From positions 25,066 through 89,065 of IMG/VR virus record IMGVR_UViG_3300044712_001401: a stretch of 64,000 bases of DNA; one strand, 5' to 3'. A program made the translations under genes and the position numbers. This stretch comes from a virus. Below, piece by piece: positions 7,881 to 24,861 of this stretch. A model generated the notes under the pieces. It did no database searches. It saw nothing but the letters and a program-made list of their open reading frames with translations, and was not told the DNA's origin. Within the stretch, counting starts at the first letter, position 1, and each line of letters opens with the position of its first letter.

Positions 7881-10088
7881 ATGTCGGATTTTTTAGCGGA
7901 CGCGCGACGCTCCGCGCGTTCGCGGGTGGAGATGGCTCGGCGGTCGTTTGGGCAGTCGCTGCGCAAGGCAACGAGCGGTGGCGCAGTTGTCGGCGACGCG
8001 TCCGAGCTTGGGCTCATGTCGTCGCTCGGAACGTCTGACGGATTCTCGTTTGGCGACAAAGGAGCGAGTCAAGCTCGACTCGCTCTGGCCGAGTTTCGGT
8101 CGTGGGTCTATGTCTGCGTAAACGCGATCGCGGGGCGTCTGTCGTCGCAACCGATGGTCGCCTGCCTTGTGTCGGACGACCAAAAGTCAAAGACGGGCAA
8201 GCGTAACTCGCGGCTTGACGTCACGCGGAAAAGAAAAGTTCCGGAATCGATTCGCGCGAAACTCCCAACCGCTTTCAGCATGGAGATTCTCACGAGCGGC
8301 GATATCGTCCGGACGTTAGAGCAACCCAACCCGGTGCAATCGCGCTCGCAGTTCTTGTACTTTTCGGCGGCGTCGCTGCTTTTGTGCGGAGAGTGTTATT
8401 GGGTCGCTGGGCTCGCAACTCCAGACGAAAGCGACCAGACGAGCGACGATGGGCCGCGCGTGGAATATTGGGCGATTCCGCGAACGTGGATCAAGCCATT
8501 GCATGAGGGGCGGTTATTTTCGGGCTACGAGTTGCGGACGAGCCCCAACGCCGAACCGATTTTGTTATCGTCTTCGCAGGTCGCTCGGACGTACTTTCCT
8601 GATCCGTCGGACATCCGCGCGTGTCGTTCTCCGCTCCAAGCCGTCGCAACGTCGGTGCGTGTTGACGACCGGCTCCAAGCGAGCCAAGAGCAAGCGTTCG
8701 ACCGTGGGCTCGATCCGAACCTAATCGTCACGGTGGGGCGGCTACGCGACGAGGACGGCAAGTTAGGTGATCGTCGTCCTCGTCTGACGGGGAGCCAGCG
8801 GCGACAATTGATTCGGGCCGTGCAGGAGGTCTGGGACTCGACGGTCAACGAGGGCTACCCTGCCATCGTCGACGGTTTCATTGAGTCGGTACACAAGCTA
8901 TCCAACACGCCATCCGAAATGGATTGGACCGAGTCGGGCGACGTAATCAAGCGGCGTATCTTTCAAGCGTTTCGCGTGAACCCCATCATCGTCGGGGAGA
9001 TTGTCGGAGCGAATCGCGCCCAAGTCGTCGAGGCGGAGAAGCATTTTTGCGCGAACGCTGTCAACCCCATCGCGTCGGCTCTCTCGGACTCTGCGGATCG
9101 GCTCTCGCGTTCGTTTTTCGAGGGCGGCTCGTCGACGCGTCTAACCGTATACGTCGAGCAGGCCGAGCCCACGGACCCGGATCTCGATACGCGGCGATGG
9201 GGCGACGCGCGTAAGCTGGGCGACGTAACGCGAGACGAGTATAGAGCCGAGCTATTGGGACTGCCACCACTTGAGGACGACAACGCCACGCGCAACACCC
9301 TACTATCGACCGTCGGCGGAATTACGGGCACGGTCCAGGTTGTCACGGCGGTCGGGCAAGGCATGGTGCGCCCCGAACAAGCCCAAGCGATGTTGGAGCT
9401 ATTTCTCGAAATTCCTCCGGACGTCGCGGGCCGAATTGCCGGCGTTGGGCAGGCTCCGATCCCGGCTCTGACGCCACCGAATCCGCCGGGCGGACCAGTG
9501 CCATCGCCAGCACCGCCAAAGCCGGCCGATCCGGTGGACGACAACGAGGAGCCACCGCTTGCCGAGGACGCTCCGCCGCAGCCGGACGAGTCGCAGGAGG
9601 CGTCGTATGTGGCTCGCTATGACGTCGTACCGCTCGCGCCGACCCAATCCATGCAAGACGAAGCGGCCGTCGGTCTGGGCTTGCTAGGCGAACGCACGGT
9701 GCAAGTTTCGTCGGGGCTGCTGTCGGTGGCTCGTCGTATTGCCGGCGGAGAGCGATTGCGGGCGATCGAGTGGCGATGGCTTCGCAGCTATCTCGCACGG
9801 TGCGGAAACGCTGGGCGCAACGAGCCGGGATGGAATCGCGACGAGGCATCTTGGCCGTCGTTGCCGGCGTTGCTCTGGACGTGTTGCGGCGGTGACGCGG
9901 CGTTCGTGCGGTCCTCGTACGTGTGCGCGTGTCTCGATACGGCCGACCGTCGCGAGGCAAAGCGGGAAAAGTTTGCCGGGGCGACGACGACGATTACGCG
10001 AGCCGACGTCAAGGCGCTCAATGCCTCGCAGCTCAACGCGTTGATTGGAGGGGCTGCCGACCAAATCGGTGGCACGTTTCAAGGCTAG
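7881..10088 (+). CDS. Portal protein (HK97 family)
   Basis: 735 residues from ATG 7881. Forms the dodecameric head vertex through which DNA enters and leaves. Recognised by the portal order: WVYVCVNAIAGRLSSQP, the FLYFSAASLLLCGECYW region, YWAIPRTWIKPL, the stem/crown segment QEQAFDRGLDPNLIV, and the C-terminal IFQAFRVNPIIVGEIVGANR. Longer than most portals: after about residue 520 there is a Pro-rich linker and a ~160-residue extension ending AADQIGGTFQG of unknown role. Head of the morphogenesis module; the next gene (MuF) overlaps by 20 bases. Confidence 0.92.
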   Translation: MSDFLADARRSARSRVEMARRSFGQSLRKATSGGAVVGDASELGLMSSLGTSDGFSFGDKGASQARLALAEFRSWVYVCVNAIAGRLSSQPMVACLVSDDQKSKTGKRNSRLDVTRKRKVPESIRAKLPTAFSMEILTSGDIVRTLEQPNPVQSRSQFLYFSAASLLLCGECYWVAGLATPDESDQTSDDGPRVEYWAIPRTWIKPLHEGRLFSGYELRTSPNAEPILLSSSQVARTYFPDPSDIRACRSPLQAVATSVRVDDRLQASQEQAFDRGLDPNLIVTVGRLRDEDGKLGDRRPRLTGSQRRQLIRAVQEVWDSTVNEGYPAIVDGFIESVHKLSNTPSEMDWTESGDVIKRRIFQAFRVNPIIVGEIVGANRAQVVEAEKHFCANAVNPIASALSDSADRLSRSFFEGGSSTRLTVYVEQAEPTDPDLDTRRWGDARKLGDVTRDEYRAELLGLPPLEDDNATRNTLLSTVGGITGTVQVVTAVGQGMVRPEQAQAMLELFLEIPPDVAGRIAGVGQAPIPALTPPNPPGGPVPSPAPPKPADPVDDNEEPPLAEDAPPQPDESQEASYVARYDVVPLAPTQSMQDEAAVGLGLLGERTVQVSSGLLSVARRIAGGERLRAIEWRWLRSYLARCGNAGRNEPGWNRDEASWPSLPALLWTCCGGDAAFVRSSYVCACLDTADRREAKREKFAGATTTITRADVKALNASQLNALIGGAADQIGGTFQG

Positions 10089-13035
10089 CGTCGAGCAGTT
10101 TGTCGCGAGATTCATTGCGGCGAACCCGACATTGACGAAGGGGAGCGGAGCAACTCAAGCGTCTCGGCTCGTAAAGATGTTCGACGCGAAATCGGCTCTG
10201 GCCGATCTGTCGCGGCGGTGCATTAATCCGCTCGCGTCAGCGTTCGCGACTGGGGCAATCGTCGAGCGTCGGCTACACCGCGCCGTTTGCGTTGATCACA
10301 AATCCGGCGTCAAGACGACGGCCGAGGATATCGCGAGACGGCTACAAATCGACTTGCCACCGGGGATTTCGATTGGGCAAATGCCGGCGTGGCTCCGCGC
10401 TCGCGCGGCCGAGATTATCCACCGGACGTTCCAGGAGCCCTATTGGCAGCGCATACCCGAGACGACTCGCGACGATATCGAAGTGACGCTCCGCAACTCG
10501 ATCGACGAGGGGCTCTCCGTCCGGGAAGTCTCGCGTCAAATCATGGAGCGACACGGGGACCAATACGACCGATGGCGATCCGTCAACGTCGCTCGCACCG
10601 AGATGACGAACGCGCTCAACGCCGGGCACGTCGAGGGGATTCGCCAGACGGCGCAAGAAACCGGCCTGCGAATTGGCAAGGAGTGGGTGAGCGTGCTCGG
10701 CACCACGACTCGCGAGACGCACGCGGACGCGGACGGGCAGCAGACACCGGACGCGGAGGGAAATTTTACATTGGCCGGCTACGAAGTTCCGTGGCCGGGG
10801 CACTGGTCGCTGCCAGCGTCCGAGCGTTGCCATTGTTTCCCGGCGGGTACTCTGGTGCGTTCTATCGGCTCAACGCAAGCCGTGATGCGGGCATGGTATG
10901 AAGGCGTTGTCTATGAAATTACGACGGTTGGCGGGCGGAGACTTTCCGTCACCGAGAACCACCCCGTACTTACCGCGAGTGGATGGGTCGCGGCTGGAAA
11001 GCTCAAGATAGGCGACCAGTTGTTCGCCACAACGAGACAAGTCGAGTCGTCCGTGGCGAATGAACAAATACAAGACGAACCAACCAGAATTGAGCAAATG
11101 TTCGAGGCGGCGCGAGAGCGATCCGTTTTTGGTTCCGGGGCGTCCGGCTACAAACTCCGCCGGTGCAGTCGTCGAGACTTCTACGGCGATGGGGAATTCT
11201 CGCAGGGCTATGTCGAGATTGTATTGATCGACAGCGACCTGCGTGCGGATCGTGAATCCGCAGCCGACAAGGTACGACGAGACCAAGACTTCTCGCGAGT
11301 AAACATTTACCTGCCGGAGTTGCTTCGTCATGGCGCGGCGGCGTCTTCGTTCAATCGGCTCAGTGGACAAGCGGCGAGCGTTCCAAGCGGCAGAAAGGAC
11401 GTCGTTAGCCAAAGCGGATCGGTCGTCGTCGTCGAGCCCCGACCAGCGGCTACGTTGCCCATCGGAGTACGAGCGGATTTTGCGGCCGTTGGCTCGCAAT
11501 CTTTCGGCGAGCCACGGACGACTCACCCCGTACCGTTCGGCGACGCGCTTAAGGTTCTCGCCTGCGTCGTAGTCGCGGATCATGTCGCTCAAATCGTCGC
11601 GGTCAAGTCGGCGTGTCACGTGTACGATCTCCAAACTGAAAGCGGCCTGATTGAGGCGGGCACTGGCAATGGTGGTGTAATCGTATCAAATTGTCAATGT
11701 AGCGTTATATCGTCCGTCGTCATGGACGAAATCTCCGACGAGCCAAAGCCGGAACCGACACCGGAACCGGAGCCGACGCCACCGCCGGCAGTCGAGCCAC
11801 CGCCGGCGCAAGAACCGCAGCCAATCCCGGCGTGGGAGCCTGGGACGATTCCGACGTCGGACCAACTCGGTGCGATGAGCTACGAGGAACTGCGGCGAGT
11901 GCCTGTCGAACACGTCGTTAACTTGCATCCCGAATTGAACGACGTACATCAGCGGGTATTGAAAGCGGCGGACAAGTTCGACCGGCTTGGCGGCGCACCG
12001 CCGAAGGCGAAGCTCGACAAAGCGGCCGAGGATTACAACAAGGCACACAAGAAGGTTTACGAGCTTGAAGCGAAATGGATGCAAGCCAACGAGCGAGGCG
12101 ACAAGGAAAAGGCGAAGGCGTTGATGGAAAAAATCGACGCGGCTGCGGCGAAGTTTGAGGCGGCGAAGACCAAGTACGCGGGGATGCTCGACAAGCGATT
12201 TAAGGCGAACGAGTTCAAGACACCGGAAGAGGCTCGGCGGTCTTTCCTGGCATCCGTGGGCGTTCCGAAAGGCGAGCGATTGAAAATCTACGGAGTTAAG
12301 GCTCCGATGCATCCGCCAGAATACCGCGTCAACTTGGAGGATGGCGGGTCCGTCGTCGTCCAGTTTCAGGATCAAAATATGCTGCGGACCAGCACCGGAG
12401 ATTGGGACCGCAATTCGCACGTTGGCCGACGAATTGAGGAGGCGAAAAACTTTGTCGAACCACTGATTGCGAAGCGTGGTGTCTTTGCGGAAAGCGAGCG
12501 AATTGCCAACGAAGTGGCGAACGTGCGGTTTCATCTTGGGGAGGAAGGCGTTCGCGCGCATGCGAAAGCTAAAGGGCACGACGTCACGAAATCAGATGCT
12601 CCAAACTATCGCGGTGTTTTTATCTCGCCGTCGGACGACGTGGGGACTGTGGTGCATGAGCTAGGCCACGTCATCGAAGGGGCTCGCGGCGACGGCATGA
12701 CCAAACGTGCCGAGGAGTTTCGGCAATATCGCACGGCGAAGACGCCAGACGTCCCGATGCGAAAGTACAGTCCGTTCTATTCCGAGTGGGAAATTGGCAA
12801 CGAAGATCGATTTCATGGGGTCTTCGATAGCGACGCCAAGCCGGGGAAGGTATATGATGAAAAAGACAACGTTGCGAGGCGTGCTGCGTACACCGGCAAA
12901 GGCTATGGAATGTATGGCACGGAGCTAACGTCGATGGGGCTCGAAGCGATGTATCGCGACCCGTATCGGCTCGCGAAAAACGACCCGGAGTTGTTCAAGT
13001 TCGTGATTGGGGTGTTGCGTGGAATCGTCGAGTAG
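10069..13035 (+). CDS. MuF-type minor head protein interrupted by an intein, with C-terminal metallopeptidase-like domain
   Basis: 988 residues as translated, about 702 after splicing. Extein: an N-terminal MuF/SPP1-gp7 domain (YWQRIPETTRDDIEVTLRNS; VNVARTEMTNALNAG) ending in the Cys-rich RCH|CQCSV, where the intein sits exactly in the conserved HxCxC cluster. Then a Pro/Glu linker, a helical segment, and a C-terminal domain with VVHELGHVIEGARG at residues 863-867, the zinc-binding HExxH, plus a downstream TELTSMGLEAM that could give the third ligand. MuF proteins are packaged head proteins, and C-terminal enzymatic domains on them are often delivered with DNA. Start GTG 10069 lies inside the portal gene; TTG 10045 is an alternative. 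Confidence 0.85.
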   Translation: MARFKASVEQFVARFIAANPTLTKGSGATQASRLVKMFDAKSALADLSRRCINPLASAFATGAIVERRLHRAVCVDHKSGVKTTAEDIARRLQIDLPPGISIGQMPAWLRARAAEIIHRTFQEPYWQRIPETTRDDIEVTLRNSIDEGLSVREVSRQIMERHGDQYDRWRSVNVARTEMTNALNAGHVEGIRQTAQETGLRIGKEWVSVLGTTTRETHADADGQQTPDAEGNFTLAGYEVPWPGHWSLPASERCHCFPAGTLVRSIGSTQAVMRAWYEGVVYEITTVGGRRLSVTENHPVLTASGWVAAGKLKIGDQLFATTRQVESSVANEQIQDEPTRIEQMFEAARERSVFGSGASGYKLRRCSRRDFYGDGEFSQGYVEIVLIDSDLRADRESAADKVRRDQDFSRVNIYLPELLRHGAAASSFNRLSGQAASVPSGRKDVVSQSGSVVVVEPRPAATLPIGVRADFAAVGSQSFGEPRTTHPVPFGDALKVLACVVVADHVAQIVAVKSACHVYDLQTESGLIEAGTGNGGVIVSNCQCSVISSVVMDEISDEPKPEPTPEPEPTPPPAVEPPPAQEPQPIPAWEPGTIPTSDQLGAMSYEELRRVPVEHVVNLHPELNDVHQRVLKAADKFDRLGGAPPKAKLDKAAEDYNKAHKKVYELEAKWMQANERGDKEKAKALMEKIDAAAAKFEAAKTKYAGMLDKRFKANEFKTPEEARRSFLASVGVPKGERLKIYGVKAPMHPPEYRVNLEDGGSVVVQFQDQNMLRTSTGDWDRNSHVGRRIEEAKNFVEPLIAKRGVFAESERIANEVANVRFHLGEEGVRAHAKAKGHDVTKSDAPNYRGVFISPSDDVGTVVHELGHVIEGARGDGMTKRAEEFRQYRTAKTPDVPMRKYSPFYSEWEIGNEDRFHGVFDSDAKPGKVYDEKDNVARRAAYTGKGYGMYGTELTSMGLEAMYRDPYRLAKNDPELFKFVIGVLRGIVE
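10834..11691 (+). other. Intein coding segment within the MuF gene
   Basis: 286 codons, residues 256-541 of the MuF precursor. Block A is CFPAGTLVRS with Cys1. Block B includes the TxxH element TENHPVLTASGWVAAGKL. Block F is CHVYDLQTESGLIEAG. Block G is GGVIVSN followed by Cys+1. The penultimate residue is Ser instead of the usual His, seen in some active inteins. Excision would join RCH to CQCSV and restore the MuF cysteine cluster. The sense strand shows no LAGLIDADG or HNH endonuclease; instead the opposite strand carries a long endonuclease-like gene across most of the element. Confidence 0.85.
10870..11619 (-). CDS. Putative Vsr/PD-(D/E)XK-type homing endonuclease encoded antisense inside the intein
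   Basis: 249 residues on the minus strand from GTG at 11619-11617. A Shine-Dalgarno GGAG (11632-11629) lies nine bases upstream, which makes a chance open frame less likely. Residues 5-50 form a helix-turn-helix (LKRVAERYGVSRPWLAERL). Residues 112-190 look like a Vsr/PD-(D/E)XK nuclease core: helix VLVSSYLVGCGF, strand TIRTQVAVDQYNLDIAL with D136, strand FPIAVEV with E147, then a basic helix and GWFVLYLFIR. It covers 750 of the intein's 858 bases. Its register places the catalytic PIAVEV codon-for-codon opposite the sense motif DFYGDG (11176-11193). Likely promotes intein homing; activity is inferred. Confidence 0.7.
   Translation of the reverse strand: MTRRLDRDDLSDMIRDYDAGENLKRVAERYGVSRPWLAERLRANGRKIRSYSDGQRSRWSGLDDDDRSALANDVLSAAWNARRLSTEPIERRRRRAMTKQLRQVNVYSREVLVSSYLVGCGFTIRTQVAVDQYNLDIALREFPIAVEVSTTAPAEFVAGRPGTKNGSLSRRLEHLLNSGWFVLYLFIRHGRLDLSRCGEQLVAYLELSSRDPSTRGKYGVVLGDGKSPPANRRNFIDNAFIPCPHHGLR
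11704..11731 (-). promoter_or_regulatory. Possible promoter for the antisense endonuclease gene
   Basis: On the minus strand TTTCGT (11731-11726), 16 bases, then TATAAC (11709-11704), about 85 bases upstream of the GTG start. The -10 is good and the -35 weak. The sense codons here (GTA, TCA, AAT, TGT, ATA) are unusually AT-rich for this genome, which fits selection for something other than protein. Confidence 0.3.
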
Positions 13036-14504: not shown

Positions 14505-14637
14505 ACGCCGGACGTTCCAGGCGAACCGATGACGAATCACGAGCCGGGGCGGAGTCTCTAGGCGCAGCGTCGAACCCACCCTTTCGACGTTTGCATCTTG
14601 GCTCCGTCTCGGCTCGTTCTTTTTGCGGGTAGAAGCG

Positions 14638-15558
14638 ATGTCGAAAAACTGCTCGTTTTATCTGGGACCGGCGGTAAACCTTTCGGCTCGAAAAGTGCGG
14701 GTCGTTTGCACGAACTATCAACCGCCCGATCTCATTACGCAGCAGACGCTCGCGGGAAACGCGACGACGTTCTCCATCGAACTTGAGGACGATAAGAAAT
14801 ACGAGATTCGCTTGATCGACGTGCGCGGCGGCGTGGACGGTCTCCCGTCGTACCTGCGAGTCGATACGTCTTCCGATTTGATTCCGTTTCAGTCCGGCGA
14901 AATCGTGCTCGTATCGGCGGAGGACACTTCCTCCTCGTCGCTATCGTCGCTGTCGTCGGTATCGTCGTCATCGTCTCGCGGATCGTCGCTCTCGTCCAAG
15001 TCGAGTAGCAGCCGGTCCTCGTCGTCTCGCTCCAGCTCGTCGAGCCAGAGCAGCCTTAGCAGCTTGAGCAGCCTATCGTCGTCGTCGTCTCGCGGCTCGT
15101 CGCTGTCGTCGCTCTCGTCCAAGTCGAGTAGCAGCCGGTCCTCGTCGTCGAAGTCGTCTAGTGGCAGCTCGTCATCGTCGTCGATTACGCAATCGCTCTC
15201 GGCATCGTCTCGCTCGTCCAAGTCGAGCAGTAGCCGGTCGTCTGGTGGCTCGTCGCAGAGCAGCTTGACGTCGTCGCTCTCGTCGCTGTCGAGTTTAACC
15301 AGCAGCCGCTCGTCGTCGTCGTCGATGAAGTCGATGACCGAATCCAGCCTCTCGTCGCTCTCGTCCGTCTCGTCGAGCCGGTCCAGTTTGTCGTCCGTCT
15401 CGTCGAGCCTATCGAGCCAAAGCAGCAGCCGCTCGTCGTCGTCCAAGTCGTCGAGTAGCAGCGTGTCGTCGTTGTCGTCGTCCTCGTCCAGCAATTCCAG
15501 CAGCAACTCCTCTTCGACGTCGAGCCAATCGGTCTCGTCGTCGTCGACGGAACCCTAA
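14638..15558 (+). CDS. Ser-rich virion-associated protein
   Basis: 306 residues from ATG 14638. Residues 1-100 form a beta-rich globular domain (SKNCSFYLGPAVNLSARKV; KKYEIRLIDVRGGVDGLP). From about residue 100 to the end the protein is almost only serine in doublets and runs separated by L, V, R, K, Q or T, using TCG, TCC and AGC codons. The globular part resembles in style the 115-residue protein at 24872. Placed between MuF and protease, it is probably a decoration or accessory virion protein with a long flexible, possibly O-glycosylated stalk. No signal peptide. Confidence 0.65.
   Translation: MSKNCSFYLGPAVNLSARKVRVVCTNYQPPDLITQQTLAGNATTFSIELEDDKKYEIRLIDVRGGVDGLPSYLRVDTSSDLIPFQSGEIVLVSAEDTSSSSLSSLSSVSSSSSRGSSLSSKSSSSRSSSSRSSSSSQSSLSSLSSLSSSSSRGSSLSSLSSKSSSSRSSSSKSSSGSSSSSSITQSLSASSRSSKSSSSRSSGGSSQSSLTSSLSSLSSLTSSRSSSSSMKSMTESSLSSLSSVSSSRSSLSSVSSSLSSQSSSRSSSSKSSSSSVSSLSSSSSSNSSSNSSSTSSQSVSSSSTEP
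14925..15549 (+). repeat. Serine-codon low-complexity repeat
   Basis: About 620 bases of imperfect TCG/TCC/AGC repeats, including a near-repeated block from 14986 and 15106 (CTCTCGTCCAAGTCGAGTAG both times). It encodes the Ser-rich arm of the 14638 gene. Such arrays are prone to slippage, so length may vary between isolates and assemblies. Confidence 0.75.
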
Positions 15559-15957: not shown

Positions 15958-16025
15958 ATGCCGGGCGAGCGTCGGTTCGGCTCCAAAAGTTGGGACGTCT
16001 GATTCGGGTCTGGAGGATTAACGCG

Positions 16026-18794
16026 ATGTCGATTCACGAACGGTTGGTGGAGTCGCTCAAGGCGCGAGCCGTGGCGCGCGCGGGCAAGTCGGCGAACGCG
16101 TTCGGCTATGGAATCGGTTTGGCCGAAGCGTACGTCGCTCGCGCGTTTGATGAGCTTGGCTTTGGCGAGACAATCGCAGGAGCCAAGCGAGCGGACATTC
16201 TCGCGGCATCGTCCGGCAAGTTGGTGTACTGCCAACCGGAACTGGAGATTTTCCGCAAGACGACGCGGTCCTCTCAATTTGCGGAGCTACTTCCGGACGG
16301 AATCAAAGCCCCAGACAACACGCTCTTGGTCTTTCAGAACGTGGTGACGACGCCACGCATCGATCGCGACAAAGACGTCTTGGAAACGTCTGGCGGAATG
16401 CTTGACCCGAAGGCTCCGCTGTTGTGGCAGCACCTATACAATCTGCCGCTCGGTCCGGTGCTCGCGACGATTGAGCACACCCCCAAGGCGCTCAAGGTCG
16501 CGTGCGCAATTGTCGACGTCAACGATCTCACATCGGACGCGGCGAAATTTGTGGAGGCGGGGGTGCTCCGTATCTCGCACGGATTCCGGGCGTTGGAGTG
16601 GGACCAGCGCAAGGCGGAGCCGGGGGACGCGATGGGCGAACCGGGCTATCACATCACCAAGTTTGAGATAATGGAAGTCTCGCTGGTTTCCGTTCCGTCG
16701 AACGTCGATGCCGTGATCGAGATGTACGCCAAGGGCTCGCTCTCGTCCGACGTCGCGAAGGCGTGGGCTCGCAAGTCGTACGATGCTCGCCATCGCTCGT
16801 GGCGCGGCGTGACGCTCGACGACGCGAGCCAGACGGCGGTGGCTCCGTCCGGAGTCAAGCGAGTCGTGATTGACGACGCGACGCCGGCGAACGAGACGGA
16901 AGAACCGGCAATCGACTCCGGCGATGTTGATTCGATTTGGGGCAAGTCAATTCCGGGCGGCGCGAAGGCGTTCGACGTCCAACGGCAAAACTTGGAGGCG
17001 TCGCGATTGGAGTACGAGTGGGTGTCGCGTTATCTCGGCACCGAAATCAAGAACGTCACGAGCCGGGACGAGCGAGCGTCGGGGGTGTGGGTCGGTACGT
17101 TCTTGTATGGCGTAGAGGAGGCGTTGGTTGGGCTCGACGCCAAGCAGGATGACTTGCGAAATCTGACGGACGACGGCAAGGAGATGCCACCCGAGTTTGC
17201 GCACGTCGAGCTAAACTCGAAAACGAGCCGCTCGTTCGTCGTCGAGGGGCTGCGTTTTTTTAAGACGGCTCGCGGACATCTGGTCGTCAAGACGTATCGG
17301 ACGTGGCACGGCGTTGGTGTCTGCGCCTATGCGGCGGATCAGCAACTCGCAACCGACGTCATCGATTCAGCGTGGGCTCTCGGGCATCAGAAAAATCTGC
17401 TGCGCTACGAGGCTTTTTCTCTGTCGGGTGAGTTCTTGCCGGCGACGTCCGAGAAGTTTGACGGCTTGTTTTTGACGCCGGAAAACGAGGCGTCAGTGAA
17501 GCGAATCGTCCGCTTGCTCAACGAGAAGGGTGGCGATCTGCCGAATCGCGGAATGATCCTGGCCGGACCGCCGGGGACTGGCAAGACGCTTTCCTCGCGA
17601 ATCGTGCGCAACGAGGCGAACGCGACCTTCGTTTGGATTGCGGCGCGGGACTTTTCGCGATTTGGTGCGTACGGAACCTTCGGGATGGCGTTTGATTTGG
17701 CAAAGGCTCTCGGGCCGTGCGTCTTATGTTTCGAGGACATCGATTCGTGGATCGACGGATACTCGGTCGACCTGCTCAAGACGGAACTGGACGGAGTCGG
17801 GCGTAGTCGTGGCATCGTTACGATGCTATCGACGAATCATCACCAGCGGTTGCCAAAGGCTCTCGTCGATCGGCCGGGGCGGTTCCATGACGTCTTGGTG
17901 TTTGATTTGCCGGACGACGCGACGCGCGCGAAAATGATTGAACGGTGGCTGCCGGAACTTCCGGACGAGTCGCGGGCGCGAGTCGTGGAGCAAACCAAGG
18001 GCTACGCCGGCGCTCATGTTTTCGAGTTGTGCTACTTTGCTCGCGTGCTCGGCGACGACGAGAAGATGGCGGTGGATGCGGCGGTCGATGTCGCGTTGAA
18101 AAAGATCTCGCAAGCCCGCGAATTGGTGGGAGCCAAGTCGGGCGAATCGCTGCAAGTCAAGGCGGCGCGTCCCGTGGCATACAAGCGGCTCGCGTTCGGA
18201 GTCAAGTCGGCGGAGACTCCGAGCGGCGTGGCCGAGGCGGCTCCGCCGCTACCGACTGCGGACGAGACGGTGCTAGACGGCTCCGCACGCGTCCCTGACG
18301 CGTCGAGCGGTGATCCGGGCGACGACACGGCAGAGCCAACCGAAAGCGGCGAGGCGGGCGACGGTGCGTCCGAGACAGGCGAACCGCTTGTCGGCACGTC
18401 GGGCGACCTGGAGACTCCGAAACAATCCGGCGCGAACGTGAGAAAGGCCGGACGCGTCTTGAGCGAAAAGAACTTGACCGCGCTCAAGGAGTGCCAACAA
18501 GACATGGAGCACGTCATCGACAACGAGGAGCTAAGCCGTTCGGGGCTCGCGTTGATGGAGCGGTGCGTGGACAGAATCAAAACGGTGATTTCGACGGCTC
18601 AACCGGAAGTTGGGCCGGTCGTGGACCCGGCGTTGGCCGGGCAGGCGAGTGCGGCGGAGTCGCTCTCGGCAAAGAGTGCGTTTTCGTTGGCGCTGACGTT
18701 GTCATCGAAGCAAGAGCGTCGGCGATGGCGAGCCGCTCTCGATTCGGTGGTGGCTCGGGACGAAGACGATGACGTTATGGCGGATTTGATGTAA
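16026..18794 (+). CDS. Prohead protease (S78-like) fused to an AAA+ ATPase and a scaffold-like tail
   Basis: 922 residues from ATG 16026, several times the usual ~200 of a prohead protease. Residues ~80-230 are the HK97-type serine protease: TTPRIDRDKDVLETSGG, WQH (H136), RISHGF (S184) and MEVSLVSVPSN (E217). Residues ~490-690 are a canonical AAA+ module: Walker A GPPGTGKT (514-521), Walker B VLCFEDID (566-573), sensor region LSTNHHQRLP, and RPGRF (616-620). The C-terminus (around 810-860) has GRVLSEKNLTALKECQ, resembling scaffold/delta segments behind phage proteases. The major capsid gene follows. It may couple protein unfolding or threading to maturation cleavage; this is inference, but the fusion itself is read directly. 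Confidence 0.85.
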   Translation: MSIHERLVESLKARAVARAGKSANAFGYGIGLAEAYVARAFDELGFGETIAGAKRADILAASSGKLVYCQPELEIFRKTTRSSQFAELLPDGIKAPDNTLLVFQNVVTTPRIDRDKDVLETSGGMLDPKAPLLWQHLYNLPLGPVLATIEHTPKALKVACAIVDVNDLTSDAAKFVEAGVLRISHGFRALEWDQRKAEPGDAMGEPGYHITKFEIMEVSLVSVPSNVDAVIEMYAKGSLSSDVAKAWARKSYDARHRSWRGVTLDDASQTAVAPSGVKRVVIDDATPANETEEPAIDSGDVDSIWGKSIPGGAKAFDVQRQNLEASRLEYEWVSRYLGTEIKNVTSRDERASGVWVGTFLYGVEEALVGLDAKQDDLRNLTDDGKEMPPEFAHVELNSKTSRSFVVEGLRFFKTARGHLVVKTYRTWHGVGVCAYAADQQLATDVIDSAWALGHQKNLLRYEAFSLSGEFLPATSEKFDGLFLTPENEASVKRIVRLLNEKGGDLPNRGMILAGPPGTGKTLSSRIVRNEANATFVWIAARDFSRFGAYGTFGMAFDLAKALGPCVLCFEDIDSWIDGYSVDLLKTELDGVGRSRGIVTMLSTNHHQRLPKALVDRPGRFHDVLVFDLPDDATRAKMIERWLPELPDESRARVVEQTKGYAGAHVFELCYFARVLGDDEKMAVDAAVDVALKKISQARELVGAKSGESLQVKAARPVAYKRLAFGVKSAETPSGVAEAAPPLPTADETVLDGSARVPDASSGDPGDDTAEPTESGEAGDGASETGEPLVGTSGDLETPKQSGANVRKAGRVLSEKNLTALKECQQDMEHVIDNEELSRSGLALMERCVDRIKTVISTAQPEVGPVVDPALAGQASAAESLSAKSAFSLALTLSSKQERRRWRAALDSVVARDEDDDVMADLM

Positions 18795-18853: not shown

Positions 18854-20455
18854 ATGAAGATTACCGCCGGCCTGAAAACTTGGGCCGTCTCGAAGGGGCT
18901 CGCGGAAAACGCGAGCGAGTTGCAAATCAAGCGGTGCGTGGCGGACGCGTTAGCGGACGGCTCGCTCACGCATGATGATTATTTGGCGTTGACGTCGGAC
19001 GCACCGAACGCCGGCGCGAAGGCGTTGCTGGAGCGAATCGCGTCCTCGTTGGAGAGCGGCGTCAAGCCGGCGGCTGCGGAGGCCGGCGCGATCAAGGGCA
19101 GCGTCGGAGGAGCCACGCCGGAACCGAAGCGGGCGAAGCCGAGCGCGTTTGAGCGGGCGTTCTCGACGGCCGATGGCGACGACGAGCCGGAGCGGGTCGT
19201 CATCGAAGTCGTGGGCGTGCACGAGCGCTACGACAACACCCGCAAGTCGGCTCGCTTTCCCGAGCGGACGATGAAGGGGGCGAAGCACTCGCGCGCCGGG
19301 CAACTGGTGACCGAAGGCGGCGACCGTGGCGTGCGCACGATCGAGGAGCCGTCGGAGTTGGATCTTGCGCTCTGCGGGGCGTACGTCAAATTCTCGATTG
19401 CGTCGCAACTGGGCGGCGTGAATCGGGTTCCTCGCCCGCTCCGTATGACGGAGCACGATTCGCAGCTCATGCAGTACGCGTTGGCGAAGGCCAAGTGGGG
19501 CGGCGTGCTCCACGGGGAGGGGACGGACGTCGAGGGAGCCATCGGCGTGAAGGGGGCTTTGCTCACGCCGAGCCAGCAAAAGGCGCTGATCGACGACGCC
19601 ACGAGCGGCGGTCTCGAAATCGCGCCGATCGCGTTCGACGACGCGGTCATCATGACTCCGCTTTTGTTCTCCGAGTTCTACCAGCGGGTGAACACGGTCC
19701 CCATCACTCGCGGCCGGCGCATCGAGGGCGCGTCGATGGGCAACGTCACGATCTCGGGGACGGGCGGCGACGATACGAACATCCCGCTGTTCAACACCGC
19801 GAGTTTCATCGCGGCGTTCGACACGACGATCTTTCCGGTCAACGGAGCGGTCGAGATTGGGCTGGATTTCATTTCCGATTCGCCAATCGACGTGGCGAAT
19901 ACGGTGGTGCGTCAATACGGAAACGTGTTGCTCGCGTGGCTCGACGAGCAGGTATGCATCGGCGACGGAACGACGGAGCCGGAAGGCGTGCTGAACGCGT
20001 CGGGGACGACGTCGGTGAACGCGGAGAACGGCGCGGGCGGTCCTCCGACTGTCGGCGATTACGAGAACCTGTTGTTCGGCGTGGCAAAGGCGTTCAAGGC
20101 GGGGACGAGCCCCGACCGGATCACGTTCGGCGCGAACGAAACGACGTACCAGCGGGCACGCGGGATCGCGGTTTCGACGACGGATCAACGCCGGGTGTTC
20201 GGGATGACGCACGAGGATTACGTGCTGTTGAACCGCACGTTCGGCATCGGCGAGTTCTTTACGAATCGCCAATCCGTCTTTGTGAACTGGGCTCGCTATC
20301 GGATGTATCGTCGGCTCGGCCTGACGATCAAGGTGACGACCGAAGGCTCGACGCTCACGCGTAAGAACCTGATGTTGCTCACCGCGCGTGCTCGCTACGG
20401 CGGACAACTGGAAGACGGTGGCGCGGCGGCCGTTTGCGCTGACGGGCAATCGTAG
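18854..20455 (+). CDS. Major capsid protein (HK97 fold)
   Basis: 533 residues from ATG 18854. Residues 1-~110 are helical and charged, like a scaffolding delta domain that the upstream protease would remove. The remainder shows a typical HK97 order: an N-arm, FPERTMKGAKHSRAG, the long spine-helix region YALAKAKWGGVLHGEGTD, EFYQRVNTVPITRGRRIEGA, a VCIGDGTTEPEGVLN loop (the family's gDGtg-P-Gil segment), and a C-terminal RRLGLTIKVTTEGSTLTRKN. The position after the protease and before a terminator supports this. Confidence 0.9.
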   Translation: MKITAGLKTWAVSKGLAENASELQIKRCVADALADGSLTHDDYLALTSDAPNAGAKALLERIASSLESGVKPAAAEAGAIKGSVGGATPEPKRAKPSAFERAFSTADGDDEPERVVIEVVGVHERYDNTRKSARFPERTMKGAKHSRAGQLVTEGGDRGVRTIEEPSELDLALCGAYVKFSIASQLGGVNRVPRPLRMTEHDSQLMQYALAKAKWGGVLHGEGTDVEGAIGVKGALLTPSQQKALIDDATSGGLEIAPIAFDDAVIMTPLLFSEFYQRVNTVPITRGRRIEGASMGNVTISGTGGDDTNIPLFNTASFIAAFDTTIFPVNGAVEIGLDFISDSPIDVANTVVRQYGNVLLAWLDEQVCIGDGTTEPEGVLNASGTTSVNAENGAGGPPTVGDYENLLFGVAKAFKAGTSPDRITFGANETTYQRARGIAVSTTDQRRVFGMTHEDYVLLNRTFGIGEFFTNRQSVFVNWARYRMYRRLGLTIKVTTEGSTLTRKNLMLLTARARYGGQLEDGGAAAVCADGQS

Positions 20456-22090: not shown

Positions 22091-22897
22091 GTGGGTAGCA
22101 TCTCCATCAATGGATTCGGAAACGCGGCGTTGCTCCGCTCTCCGTCGCTCGACGACGTGACGATTGAGCTGTTCGGAGTTTGTCGTCGATGTCGGCTCTA
22201 TCACAAAATCAGAGCGAACCCGATGTCGTTCGGGTCGCTCGCGTTCGATTGGCAGCACAAGCACCGATTGTGCGAATTGGAGACTCCCGGCTCCGTCGAG
22301 TTCATTTCGCCACGGCGAACGATGCCAAGGAATTTCGACGATCGGATTTACAATCGGCTCGGGTATGGTCCGCAATGGCTCGACTGGCGGCCGAATGCGG
22401 ACGTGAAGTTGGCGTACGCGGCAGACGCGGCGATGACGATGGACCTTTCAGCTCTCAACTCGTCGTCGACGTTTACGCTCGGCCGAGAGTCGACGGCGGT
22501 CGACAATACGGCCAATCTCTATCTCGACTTCCGGATCACCGGAACCTACATAGCGGGCACTACGCCGACGACTCCTGCCGAGACTCGTTTGTATTTGATT
22601 ATACCAACCGATGACACCCCTGCGTGGCCAGACGTGTTCGACGGGACGGATAGCAATGAAACCGTCACGAATTCAAACATACTTGATACGCTCCCGATGT
22701 TGTGGTCTGGAACCGTTGGTACGACATCCAATCAGACGTATCCAATTATCTCAGCGATGACGGTCGCGCAAGTGCTCGGTTTTTGCCCATCGCGGTGGGG
22801 ACTGTTCTTTACTCACTTTCACACCGCCGCTCTCAAGACCGATGCGGGAAATACTAACTCGATCTACCGTCAAGGTCTTTACGCCACGGTGATTTAG
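22091..22897 (+). CDS. Putative virion/decoration protein
   Basis: 268 residues from GTG 22091 with GGGAAAG upstream. The N-terminal 70 residues contain CRRCRLYH plus a later LCELE, suggesting a metal site. The C-terminal 170 are beta-rich with repeated Thr/Asn strands (NLYLDFRITGTYIAG; FTHFHTAALKTDAGN). No membrane segments. Its stop shares a base with the LamG gene start, so the two are coupled. A decoration or head-fibre base is plausible by context. Confidence 0.55.
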   Translation: MGSISINGFGNAALLRSPSLDDVTIELFGVCRRCRLYHKIRANPMSFGSLAFDWQHKHRLCELETPGSVEFISPRRTMPRNFDDRIYNRLGYGPQWLDWRPNADVKLAYAADAAMTMDLSALNSSSTFTLGRESTAVDNTANLYLDFRITGTYIAGTTPTTPAETRLYLIIPTDDTPAWPDVFDGTDSNETVTNSNILDTLPMLWSGTVGTTSNQTYPIISAMTVAQVLGFCPSRWGLFFTHFHTAALKTDAGNTNSIYRQGLYATVI

Positions 22898-24861
22898 TGC
22901 TCACGCAAGGCGTACCCTACAATCTTGGCGGACCGATCGAGCCGCAGCACCCGTTGCATCGGGGGCTCGTCTCGCATTTCATTTGTTTGCCTGGATTGAT
23001 GGGCGGAGCGAGGCTGCAAAATAGAATAGCTCCGCACCGCTATGCTCGTTTCGTGACCAATACGACGCGACCTTCGTGGTGGTCGTCGTTTGGACGAACG
23101 GCCGGCGCTGGCTCGATCAAGTTTCAGCATAGCTCGACGAACGGCGGCTATCTCGACCAGGACTATACGGGAATCTCCGCGTATCCGTTATCGCTCGCGG
23201 CGTGGGTGTACTGCGGAGGCATCACCGATACGTTCTACCGTGCGATCCTGACGGTCGGCTCCGACGGGTCGAATCGTGGCTGGTGTAATATCGTCGTTCG
23301 CGGGACCACATCGACTTCGATGCGGTTTGGGATGACGACAGACAACAACGACGTAGGTGGTGGATCGGCGGCCGATACAAGCACGACAAATTACTCATCC
23401 GCATGGCATCACGTAGTGGGGGTCTGGGAGTCAGCAACATCGAGAAAACTGTACGTCGACGGGCTGCTGCTTGCGACCTATACGTCGTCAGTCACGCTTG
23501 CCGCTGGAATCGCGACCGGTTCAACGTGGCTCGGCGCGCAGAACCTTCGCGGGTCTGTCTCTGGCAATACATCGCTGACCGGCTACGCAGACGATTGGAG
23601 AGTTTGGAATCGCGGCTTGTCGTCGTCGGAGGTTTGGACGCTTTACAATCTCACTCGCGTAGGTAGCCCCATGCGCTACGTGCGAGGATGTCGGATTAGT
23701 TCGATTTTGCTCGACGGAGACACGGCGGTTTCGAGCCAATCATCTTCGCTTAGCTCGCTCTCGTCTTCGCGTTCGTCGTCTTCGCGTTCGTCGCTTAGCT
23801 CGCTCTCATCGTTGTCGAGCCTGTCGAGTTCGTCGCGTTCGTCCTCGTCGATTAGCTCGCTCTCATCGTTGTCGAGCCTGTCGAGTTCGTCGCGTTCGTC
23901 CTCGTCGATTAGCTCGCTCTCGTCGTTGTCGTCGTCGAGCGTGTCGAGCCTTAGTAGCTTGTCGAGCCTGTCGACGTCTTCGCGTTCGTCGTCGTCTCGC
24001 TCGTCGTCGTCGATATCGAGCGTGTCGAGTCTCTCGACGTTGTCGAGTCAATCGAGTTCGTCGCTGTCGAGCCTGTCAAGCCAATCGAGTTCGTCGCGGT
24101 CGTCGAGTTCGTCGCTCTCGTCGCTGTCGTCGCTGTCGAGTTCGTCTCGCTCGTCGTCGAGCGTGTCGAGCCCAAGCAGTTTATCAACGCAGTCATCGCA
24201 GTCGACGTCGAGCCTGTCGAGCTTGTCGAGTGCGTCGAGCGCGTCGGTGATATCGCTATCGACTCCGTCAAGTCAGTCCAGTTTTTCGAGTTCGTCGCGG
24301 TCGAGTTCGTCTCGGTCGAGTTCGTCTCGTTCGTCGTCGTCTCGTTCGTCGTCGTCTTCGCTTAGCTCGCTTTCGTCGTTCTCGTCCTCGTCGCGGTCCT
24401 CGTCGTCGCTGTCGAGCGCGTCGAGCGTGTCGAGCCTGTCTAGCCAATCGTCGTCGCTCTCGTCCGTCTCGTCGCTTAGCTCGCTCTCGTCGTCGAGCGT
24501 GTCGAGCATTTCAAGTGCATCGAGTTCGTCTCGCTCGTCGCTGTCGAGTTTATCAAGCCTGTCGAGTTCGTCGCGGTCGTCGTCGTCGCTTAGCTCATTG
24601 TCGAGCCAATCAAGCTCGTCGGTTTCTTCGTCGAGCGCGTCGAGCGTGTCGAGCCTGTCTACCCAATCGGTTAACTCGTCGTCGTTCTCATCGTCGCTCT
24701 CGTCCGTCTCGTCGTCGTCTGTCTCGTCGTCGAGCACGTCCGACGCGTTCGGTGGGCATCCGTGGCCTGGATACGCGACGGCTGCGGGGCGGACCGGAGA
24801 AAATGACGGGGGCGGATACGCGACGGTGTCGGGCGGCTATAGCGGCGTTGTTGTTCGCTAG
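22897..24861 (+). CDS. LamG-type adhesin with very long Ser-rich domain
   Basis: 654 residues from GTG 22897. Residues ~20-250 are a concanavalin-like LamG/laminin-G fold: HRGLVSHFICLPGLMGG, PLSLAAWVYCGG, AWHHVVGVWESATSRKLYVD, GYADDWRVWNRGLSSSEV. Residues ~280-620 consist almost wholly of serine with L, R, V, Q and T spacers. A short Gly-rich end (GGGYATVSGGYSGVVVR) follows. LamG domains bind glycans, so this is probably a head fibre or surface adhesin held on a long flexible stalk. The stalk is a candidate glycosylation substrate for the phage's glycosyltransferases. Confidence 0.75.
   Translation: MLTQGVPYNLGGPIEPQHPLHRGLVSHFICLPGLMGGARLQNRIAPHRYARFVTNTTRPSWWSSFGRTAGAGSIKFQHSSTNGGYLDQDYTGISAYPLSLAAWVYCGGITDTFYRAILTVGSDGSNRGWCNIVVRGTTSTSMRFGMTTDNNDVGGGSAADTSTTNYSSAWHHVVGVWESATSRKLYVDGLLLATYTSSVTLAAGIATGSTWLGAQNLRGSVSGNTSLTGYADDWRVWNRGLSSSEVWTLYNLTRVGSPMRYVRGCRISSILLDGDTAVSSQSSSLSSLSSSRSSSSRSSLSSLSSLSSLSSSSRSSSSISSLSSLSSLSSSSRSSSSISSLSSLSSSSVSSLSSLSSLSTSSRSSSSRSSSSISSVSSLSTLSSQSSSSLSSLSSQSSSSRSSSSSLSSLSSLSSSSRSSSSVSSPSSLSTQSSQSTSSLSSLSSASSASVISLSTPSSQSSFSSSSRSSSSRSSSSRSSSSRSSSSSLSSLSSFSSSSRSSSSLSSASSVSSLSSQSSSLSSVSSLSSLSSSSVSSISSASSSSRSSLSSLSSLSSSSRSSSSLSSLSSQSSSSVSSSSASSVSSLSTQSVNSSSFSSSLSSVSSSSVSSSSTSDAFGGHPWPGYATAAGRTGENDGGGYATVSGGYSGVVVR
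23727..24744 (+). repeat. Serine-codon low-complexity repeat (~1 kb)
   Basis: Continuous TCG/AGC repeat with a ~57-base near-exact duplication starting at about 23806 and 23863 (TCGTTGTCGAGCCTGTCGAG in both). Encodes the stalk of the LamG adhesin. The complementary strand reads as Asp/Leu-rich, which yields spurious antisense frames. Confidence 0.75.

Follow-up and report, generated by a model that had tools for sequence, protein, structure and literature searches.

A prohead protease, an AAA ATPase and a scaffold-like tail in one reading frame

The window analysed here is a 64,000-nucleotide stretch of an 89-kb IMG/VR virus record, in which the fusion is preceded by genes for a portal and a MuF-like protein, a Ser-rich ORF and a small ORF, and is followed by the capsid gene. 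The fusion ORF (P0001; 922 codons, 16026-18794, + strand) is open throughout with no internal stop, as the first-pass annotation had read it, and that annotation had also placed it directly before the capsid gene; an HK97-fold capsid is indeed the next gene. The features are as follows.

7881..10088, + strand: portal protein (context; profile match)
10045..13035, + strand: MuF-like head morphogenesis protein with intein-like insert (context; profile match)
16012..16016, + strand: ribosome-binding site GGAGG of the fusion ORF, 9 bases before the ATG at 16026 (sequence)
16026..18794, + strand: protease / N-domain / AAA / scaffold fusion ORF, P0001, 922 aa
16293..16790, + strand: HK97-type (S78) prohead protease domain, residues ~90-255 (Pfam, PHROG, alignment, structural model)
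16431-16433, 16575-16577 and 16674-16676, + strand: codons of the protease triad H136, S184 and E217
16797..16961, + strand: disordered linker 1, residues 258-312 (structural model and relatives)
16962..17465, + strand: N-domain of the ATPase module, residues 313-480 (model pLDDT 93.5, structure comparisons)
17466..18140, + strand: AAA ATPase domain and lid, residues 481-705 (profiles, alignment, model)
17565-17588, 17721-17744, 17835-17837 and 17871-17885, + strand: AAA motifs Walker A, Walker B, sensor-1 N604 and RPGRF
18147..18452, + strand: disordered linker 2, residues 708-809 (structural model)
18444..18605, + strand: scaffold-like helical segment, residues 807-860, KAGRVLSEKN... (identity to relative L004, predicted helices)
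18854..20455, + strand: HK97-fold major capsid protein (Pfam Phage_capsid 1.6e-13)

Analysis of P0001 with Pfam identified Peptidase_S78 at residues 130-235 (E 2.3e-6; 28.3 bits, cutoff 21) and AAA at residues 510-627 (E 2.8e-14). The PHROG family phrog_80, 'head maturation protease', matched at 2.3e-15, and NCBIfam TIGR01543 reached 31.1 bits, under its equivalog cutoff of 59. H136, S184 and E217, the catalytic residues picked out in the first pass, were the sole invariant columns over 50 relatives (50/50 rows); by profile and by these His/Ser/Glu residues, the protease is of the HK97 type (S78). In the AAA-bearing rows, K520 of Walker A, E570, D571 and D573 of Walker B, N604, R616 and R619 were invariant (46/46). 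With Walker A, Walker B, sensor 1 and arginine fingers all present, the ATPase is, judged by its motifs, a classical AAA with its catalytic residues intact. Walker A (514-521) and RPGRF (616-620) lie where they were first read; Walker B (566-573) had been placed correctly but reads E-D (CFEDID), not the usual D-E.

A structural model of full-length P0001 was built from the 50-row alignment. It predicted a folded protease (residues ~90-255) and a folded unit of N-domain and AAA (313-705) with pLDDT mostly >90, disordered linkers at 258-312 and 708-809, and scaffold-like helices at 814-858. Failure to model either enzyme, which the first-pass annotation had named as counting against the fusion, was thus not seen. 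That annotation had described a complete AAA+ module; the AAA itself was borne out, but it had overlooked an extra conserved folded domain of ~165 residues (313-480), which precedes the AAA and is part of the ATPase module. The proposed scaffold-like C-terminus is supported by residues 807-858, a 52-aa stretch 46% identical to the tail of the protease-scaffold protein of L004, which has no AAA. With a scaffold segment C-terminal to the protease and the capsid gene next, P0001 is by its sequence layout a protease-scaffold fusion. It resembles the known HK97-type prohead proteases and protease-scaffold fusions (Pfam S78; PHROG 80/617) in the His/Ser/Glu residues, the site before the capsid gene and the scaffold-like C-terminus; those proteins have no ATPase, whereas P0001 carries ~400 residues of N-domain and AAA between protease and scaffold.

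Several other features of the head region were recorded. The MuF-like protein (10045-13035, + strand) has an intein-like insert at about residues 264-545 (CFPAGTLV...VSNC; Pfam Intein_splicing 5.4e-6, under cutoff). Antisense within this insert lies a 254-aa ORF (10870-11634, - strand) with a weak HTH_23 match (0.0034) and, on visual inspection, a part that may resemble an endonuclease; were it a homing endonuclease, its antisense position within an intein would be unusual. Long Ser-rich, low-complexity ORFs of the SSLSSLSS type (14623-15558 and 22897-24861, + strand) lie amid the head and tail genes, and L004 has a similar Ser/Thr-rich ORF in the same position. For P0001 itself, an intein reading was rejected: there were no intein matches, and visual inspection of the module ends revealed no splice-junction cysteines.

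The fusion belongs to a large family in metagenomic phages

A first scan with the whole P0001 protein gave no matches. A protease-based scan uncovered two more virus types with the fusion, along with several AAA-less ones, and a first ATPase scan had FtsH-like and other AAA genes among the matches listed. For the family survey, IMG/VR was searched with the C-terminal half of the ATPase, a query that includes no protease sequence. This revealed 131 relatives, the best 80 of which were kept and formed 59 clusters at 80% identity. Among these clusters, the prohead protease was encoded in the same ORF as the ATPase in 51/59 and in a neighbouring ORF in 6/59; the remaining 2 contigs are incomplete at the 5' end. 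Control loci around other AAA genes contained a prohead protease in 0/16 cases. Proteases were scored with a profile built in this analysis, whose sensitivity for the family is high by design because it was seeded partly with family proteases; the unaided Pfam S78 model identified the protease in 23/49 and PHROG 80 in 35/49. The first sizeable downstream ORF was a Pfam capsid in 35/50.

The order protease-AAA-variable tail was observed in 47 clusters and in L058, which has a variant Walker A, and the order AAA-protease-capsid, on a single chain, in 3 (L035, L050, L057). In L035 (2693-6001), one 1102-aa ORF comprises AAA, prohead protease and HK97-fold capsid. Six clusters have a separate AAA ORF adjoining the protease. 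In L091, L100 and L103 this ORF lies directly upstream of the protease and has no scaffold tail; in L092 and L098 it overlaps the protease ORF, and these two may be frameshifts. The separate ATPase ORFs of L103 (4802-7417) and L100 (193-2697) carry a long N-terminal extension with a weak match to DNA_ligase_A_M (ATP-dependent DNA ligase; 1.7e-5 and 0.0047, respectively, both under the Pfam cutoff).

An assembly or sequencing error joining two genes, which the first-pass annotation had raised, has a negligible probability. Because the same fusion recurs in dozens of independent contigs, among them near-identical copies from different metagenomes (L009/L010/L018), we excluded it. The search of metagenomic phages for the same domain pair, proposed in that annotation, thus identifies the fusion, from sequence, as a member of a large phage-specific family, neither an assembly error nor a one-off.

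The ATPase and the protease have been paired repeatedly

Local gene order is shared with L004, the closest capsid relative of the window (56% identity), whose 461-aa protein consists of protease and scaffold only, without AAA. P0001 and L004 are 55% identical over the protease and, as given above, 46% over the 52-residue scaffold segment; the gap between the two matches spans ~535 residues in P0001 versus ~70 in L004. In sister phages whose proteases are 55-66% identical, an AAA is missing from the protein and from the remainder of the contigs, which are fragmentary; the ATPase is therefore not universally needed. In a tree of the protease domain, where the window adjoins L004, AAA presence or absence switches at least 6 times, 4 of them forced by well supported branches. 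Across the family, AAA and protease identity were loosely correlated (Spearman 0.21): L102 and L110 are 83% identical over the AAA and 29% over the protease, and L035 and L036 are 66% and 22% identical, respectively, with the domain order swapped. The loose correlation, the re-pairing of near-identical ATPases and the gain and loss in the tree indicate that the coupling was made or re-made repeatedly across diverged phages, and this is the most compelling reason to infer that the two are functional partners. In pairs close enough to measure, omega of the AAA was ~0.04-0.14, near that of the protease domain, with looser tails; the ATPase module is under purifying selection. Recurrence (57/59 clusters versus 0/16 controls), permuted fusions and purifying selection strongly support, by comparative sequence evidence, a functional link between the ATPase and the prohead protease.

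The main alternative to a role in assembly is that the ATPase is an internal or ejection protein, which would enter the prohead on the scaffold, be freed by the protease, be injected with the DNA and act in the host, like the T4 internal proteins. Packaging of the ATPase in the prohead is plausible, and T4 and SPN3US provide precedents for ejection proteins that undergo cleavage (PMC7411985); as in P0001, these have domains that the prohead could take up and its protease could cut. The ATPase sits between disordered linkers and comes and goes among sister phages. At the site of linker 1, relatives either have no AAA module or hold other segments, and the linker-region extras include zinc ribbons (L012/L013), a Cys-rich segment (L013) and other inserts (L007/L008). 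The IetA-like ATPases, which are distant relatives, are also consistent with a passenger. In IetA, of the anti-phage system IetAS, an AAA is likewise paired with a protease gene, and the PADLOC IetA model matches the C-terminal half of the AAA (E 2e-9). This match is weak and partial, however (NCBIfam IteA, 33.7 bits versus a cutoff of 510), and IetA-like genes scored at most 140 bits with the phage ATPase model, compared with ~400-670 for family members. Unlike the T4 and SPN3US proteins, the phage-family ATPase can also be a separate gene, and in L091, L100 and L103 it is still found directly upstream of the protease despite having no scaffold tail; moreover, one ATPase type is kept where the accompanying proteases are very diverged, and it occurs in either domain order. 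We consider it unlikely that the ATPase is such a passenger, but this is a serious rival to a role in assembly.

One of the relatives with linker extras, L013 (5989-8127), is an AAA-less protease-scaffold protein whose protease-scaffold linker holds both the zinc ribbon and the Cys-rich segment; by eye, the latter resembles a four-helix copper-storage protein.

The ATPase module resembles YjoB and Bcs1 in predicted structure

By sequence, the best NCBIfam match of the ATPase was FtsH and the best PDB match p97/Cdc48. A Foldseek search with the predicted N-domain and AAA ranked YjoB first (1.2e-17) and Bcs1 next. Structural alignment to YjoB gave Z 21.6 for 352 residues over N-domain and AAA together (rmsd 7.3), and to Bcs1 Z 18.3 for 338 residues (rmsd 8.3); the Z scores of proteasomal ATPases were almost as high, mostly over ~240-250 residues centred on the AAA. 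Against Bcs1, the N-domain alone scored Z 5.8, inside the tool's stated noise range, and it had no relatives in a PDB sequence search. Because this score is middling, the kinship of the modelled module to Bcs1 is suggestive, not shown. Bacillus YjoB and the mitochondrial AAA chaperone/translocase Bcs1 align with the predicted N-domain and AAA of P0001 and, like it, have no conserved aromatic pore loop; P0001 differs from them in that it has no visible membrane segment, is fused to a phage protease and is only ~15% identical.

The first-pass annotation had suggested a built-in unfoldase that threads its substrate. As an ATP-dependent protease like FtsH or Lon, the AAA ring would unfold the scaffold or the capsid N-arms and thread them into the attached prohead protease. 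AAA and protease lie on one chain or adjacent in 57/59 clusters, and structural alignments give 27-30% identity of the AAA to FtsH-type domains, in line with the sequence matches above. However, the aromatic-hydrophobic-glycine pore loop 1 of the FtsH type is not conserved in the family alignment, where the loop is ~3 residues shorter (alignment by eye), which makes a strict FtsH-like threading machine less likely; the ranking of YjoB and Bcs1 over N-domain and AAA also speaks against it. To our knowledge, the prohead proteases of known phages require no ATPase. In contrast to FtsH and Lon, the protease of P0001 is a serine protease (S78) N-terminal to the AAA; Pfam and NCBIfam identified no HExxH zinc metalloprotease or Lon protease domain in P0001, and the FtsH match is limited to the AAA. 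An FtsH/Lon-like mechanism thus appears doubtful. Given the unconserved aromatic pore-loop triplet and YjoB as the top structural match, the ATPase is probably Bcs1/YjoB-like and not a threading FtsH-like unfoldase. In Bcs1, the substrate moves through a cavity in its folded state, and ATP is used in a concerted manner (PMC11143374). For the phage ATPase, the predicted structure and the absence of a conserved aromatic pore loop favour a Bcs1/YjoB-type mode, with folded or loosely folded substrates, over processive threading. The functional link implied by the unfoldase idea thus held up well, while ATP-driven threading fared poorly.

Distribution and novelty

No family members were found among 50,697 phage records, and none in cultured phages, where the best matches were FtsH-like or unrelated AAA genes; plasmid matches were mostly FtsH-annotated among the matches listed. 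A genome-collection scan identified one fused member, on a Cloacimonadota MAG contig, and two IetA-like genes, and 637 sampled genomes of two phyla contained no family members in a scan run without a positive control. In the Cloacimonadota phylum, 2/124 genomes matched, one through the fused member and the other through L117, a phage-like contig with a distantly related gene that stands alone. The fused member, whose MAG carries the label Cloacimonadota, is the only hint of a host. Simple recent capture of a host gene was rejected on the few matches in these scans. The L117 gene (8454-9926; 179 bits), a relative of the ATPase module, lies amid replication/recombination-type genes and does not adjoin a protease.

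The first-pass annotation knew of no well-described example of the fusion, and we likewise found none in the phage records or in the open-access literature searched. The components are known; their combination appears to be new.

Proposed role in head morphogenesis

We propose that P0001 is a prohead protease-scaffold polypeptide carrying its own AAA, a head-morphogenesis ATPase that acts on or with the protease/scaffold core, and give this reading a probability of about 0.5. The chain would be brought into the growing prohead by its scaffold tail or, in members of the AAA-protease-capsid order, by the capsid itself; there, the tethered N-domain and AAA units would form a ring, as AAA proteins such as Bcs1 do. 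While heads assemble and mature, this ring may spend ATP to remodel the scaffold/protease core or keep it soluble; alternatively, ATP could time the action of the protease. The prohead protease would then cleave the flexible linkers. We infer these steps, from prohead entry and ring formation to ATP-driven remodelling and release by proteolysis. Two observations weigh against a role in assembly: the AAA is missing in sisters with 55-66% identical proteases, and the linker-region extras would fit passenger domains.

A ring might instead serve mainly to oligomerise or organise the protease and scaffold copies, for example at the portal, with ATP bound and little remodelling. AAA proteins form rings and the linkers of P0001 are long and flexible, but all the hydrolysis residues (Walker B E/D, sensor N and arginine fingers) are invariant (46/46), and we regard a mainly structural role as very improbable.

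In the textbook view, the protease and packaging drive head maturation in tailed phages and herpesviruses, with ATP spent by the terminase only. The ATPase-protease fusion family suggests a second ATP-using step in head building. More tentatively than the reading of P0001 itself, the family may represent a widespread, undescribed class of tailed phages that hydrolyse ATP in or on the prohead, in which an AAA ring, joined by covalent linkage to the protease and to the scaffold or capsid, would drive remodelling or clearance of the scaffold core and maturation would be energy-dependent and chaperone-assisted. The fusion is a directly testable system, with one gene, two mutable active sites and natural ATPase-less sister phages, and it offers a likely function for AAA proteins whose nearest viral families (PHROGs) carry the label 'unknown function'.
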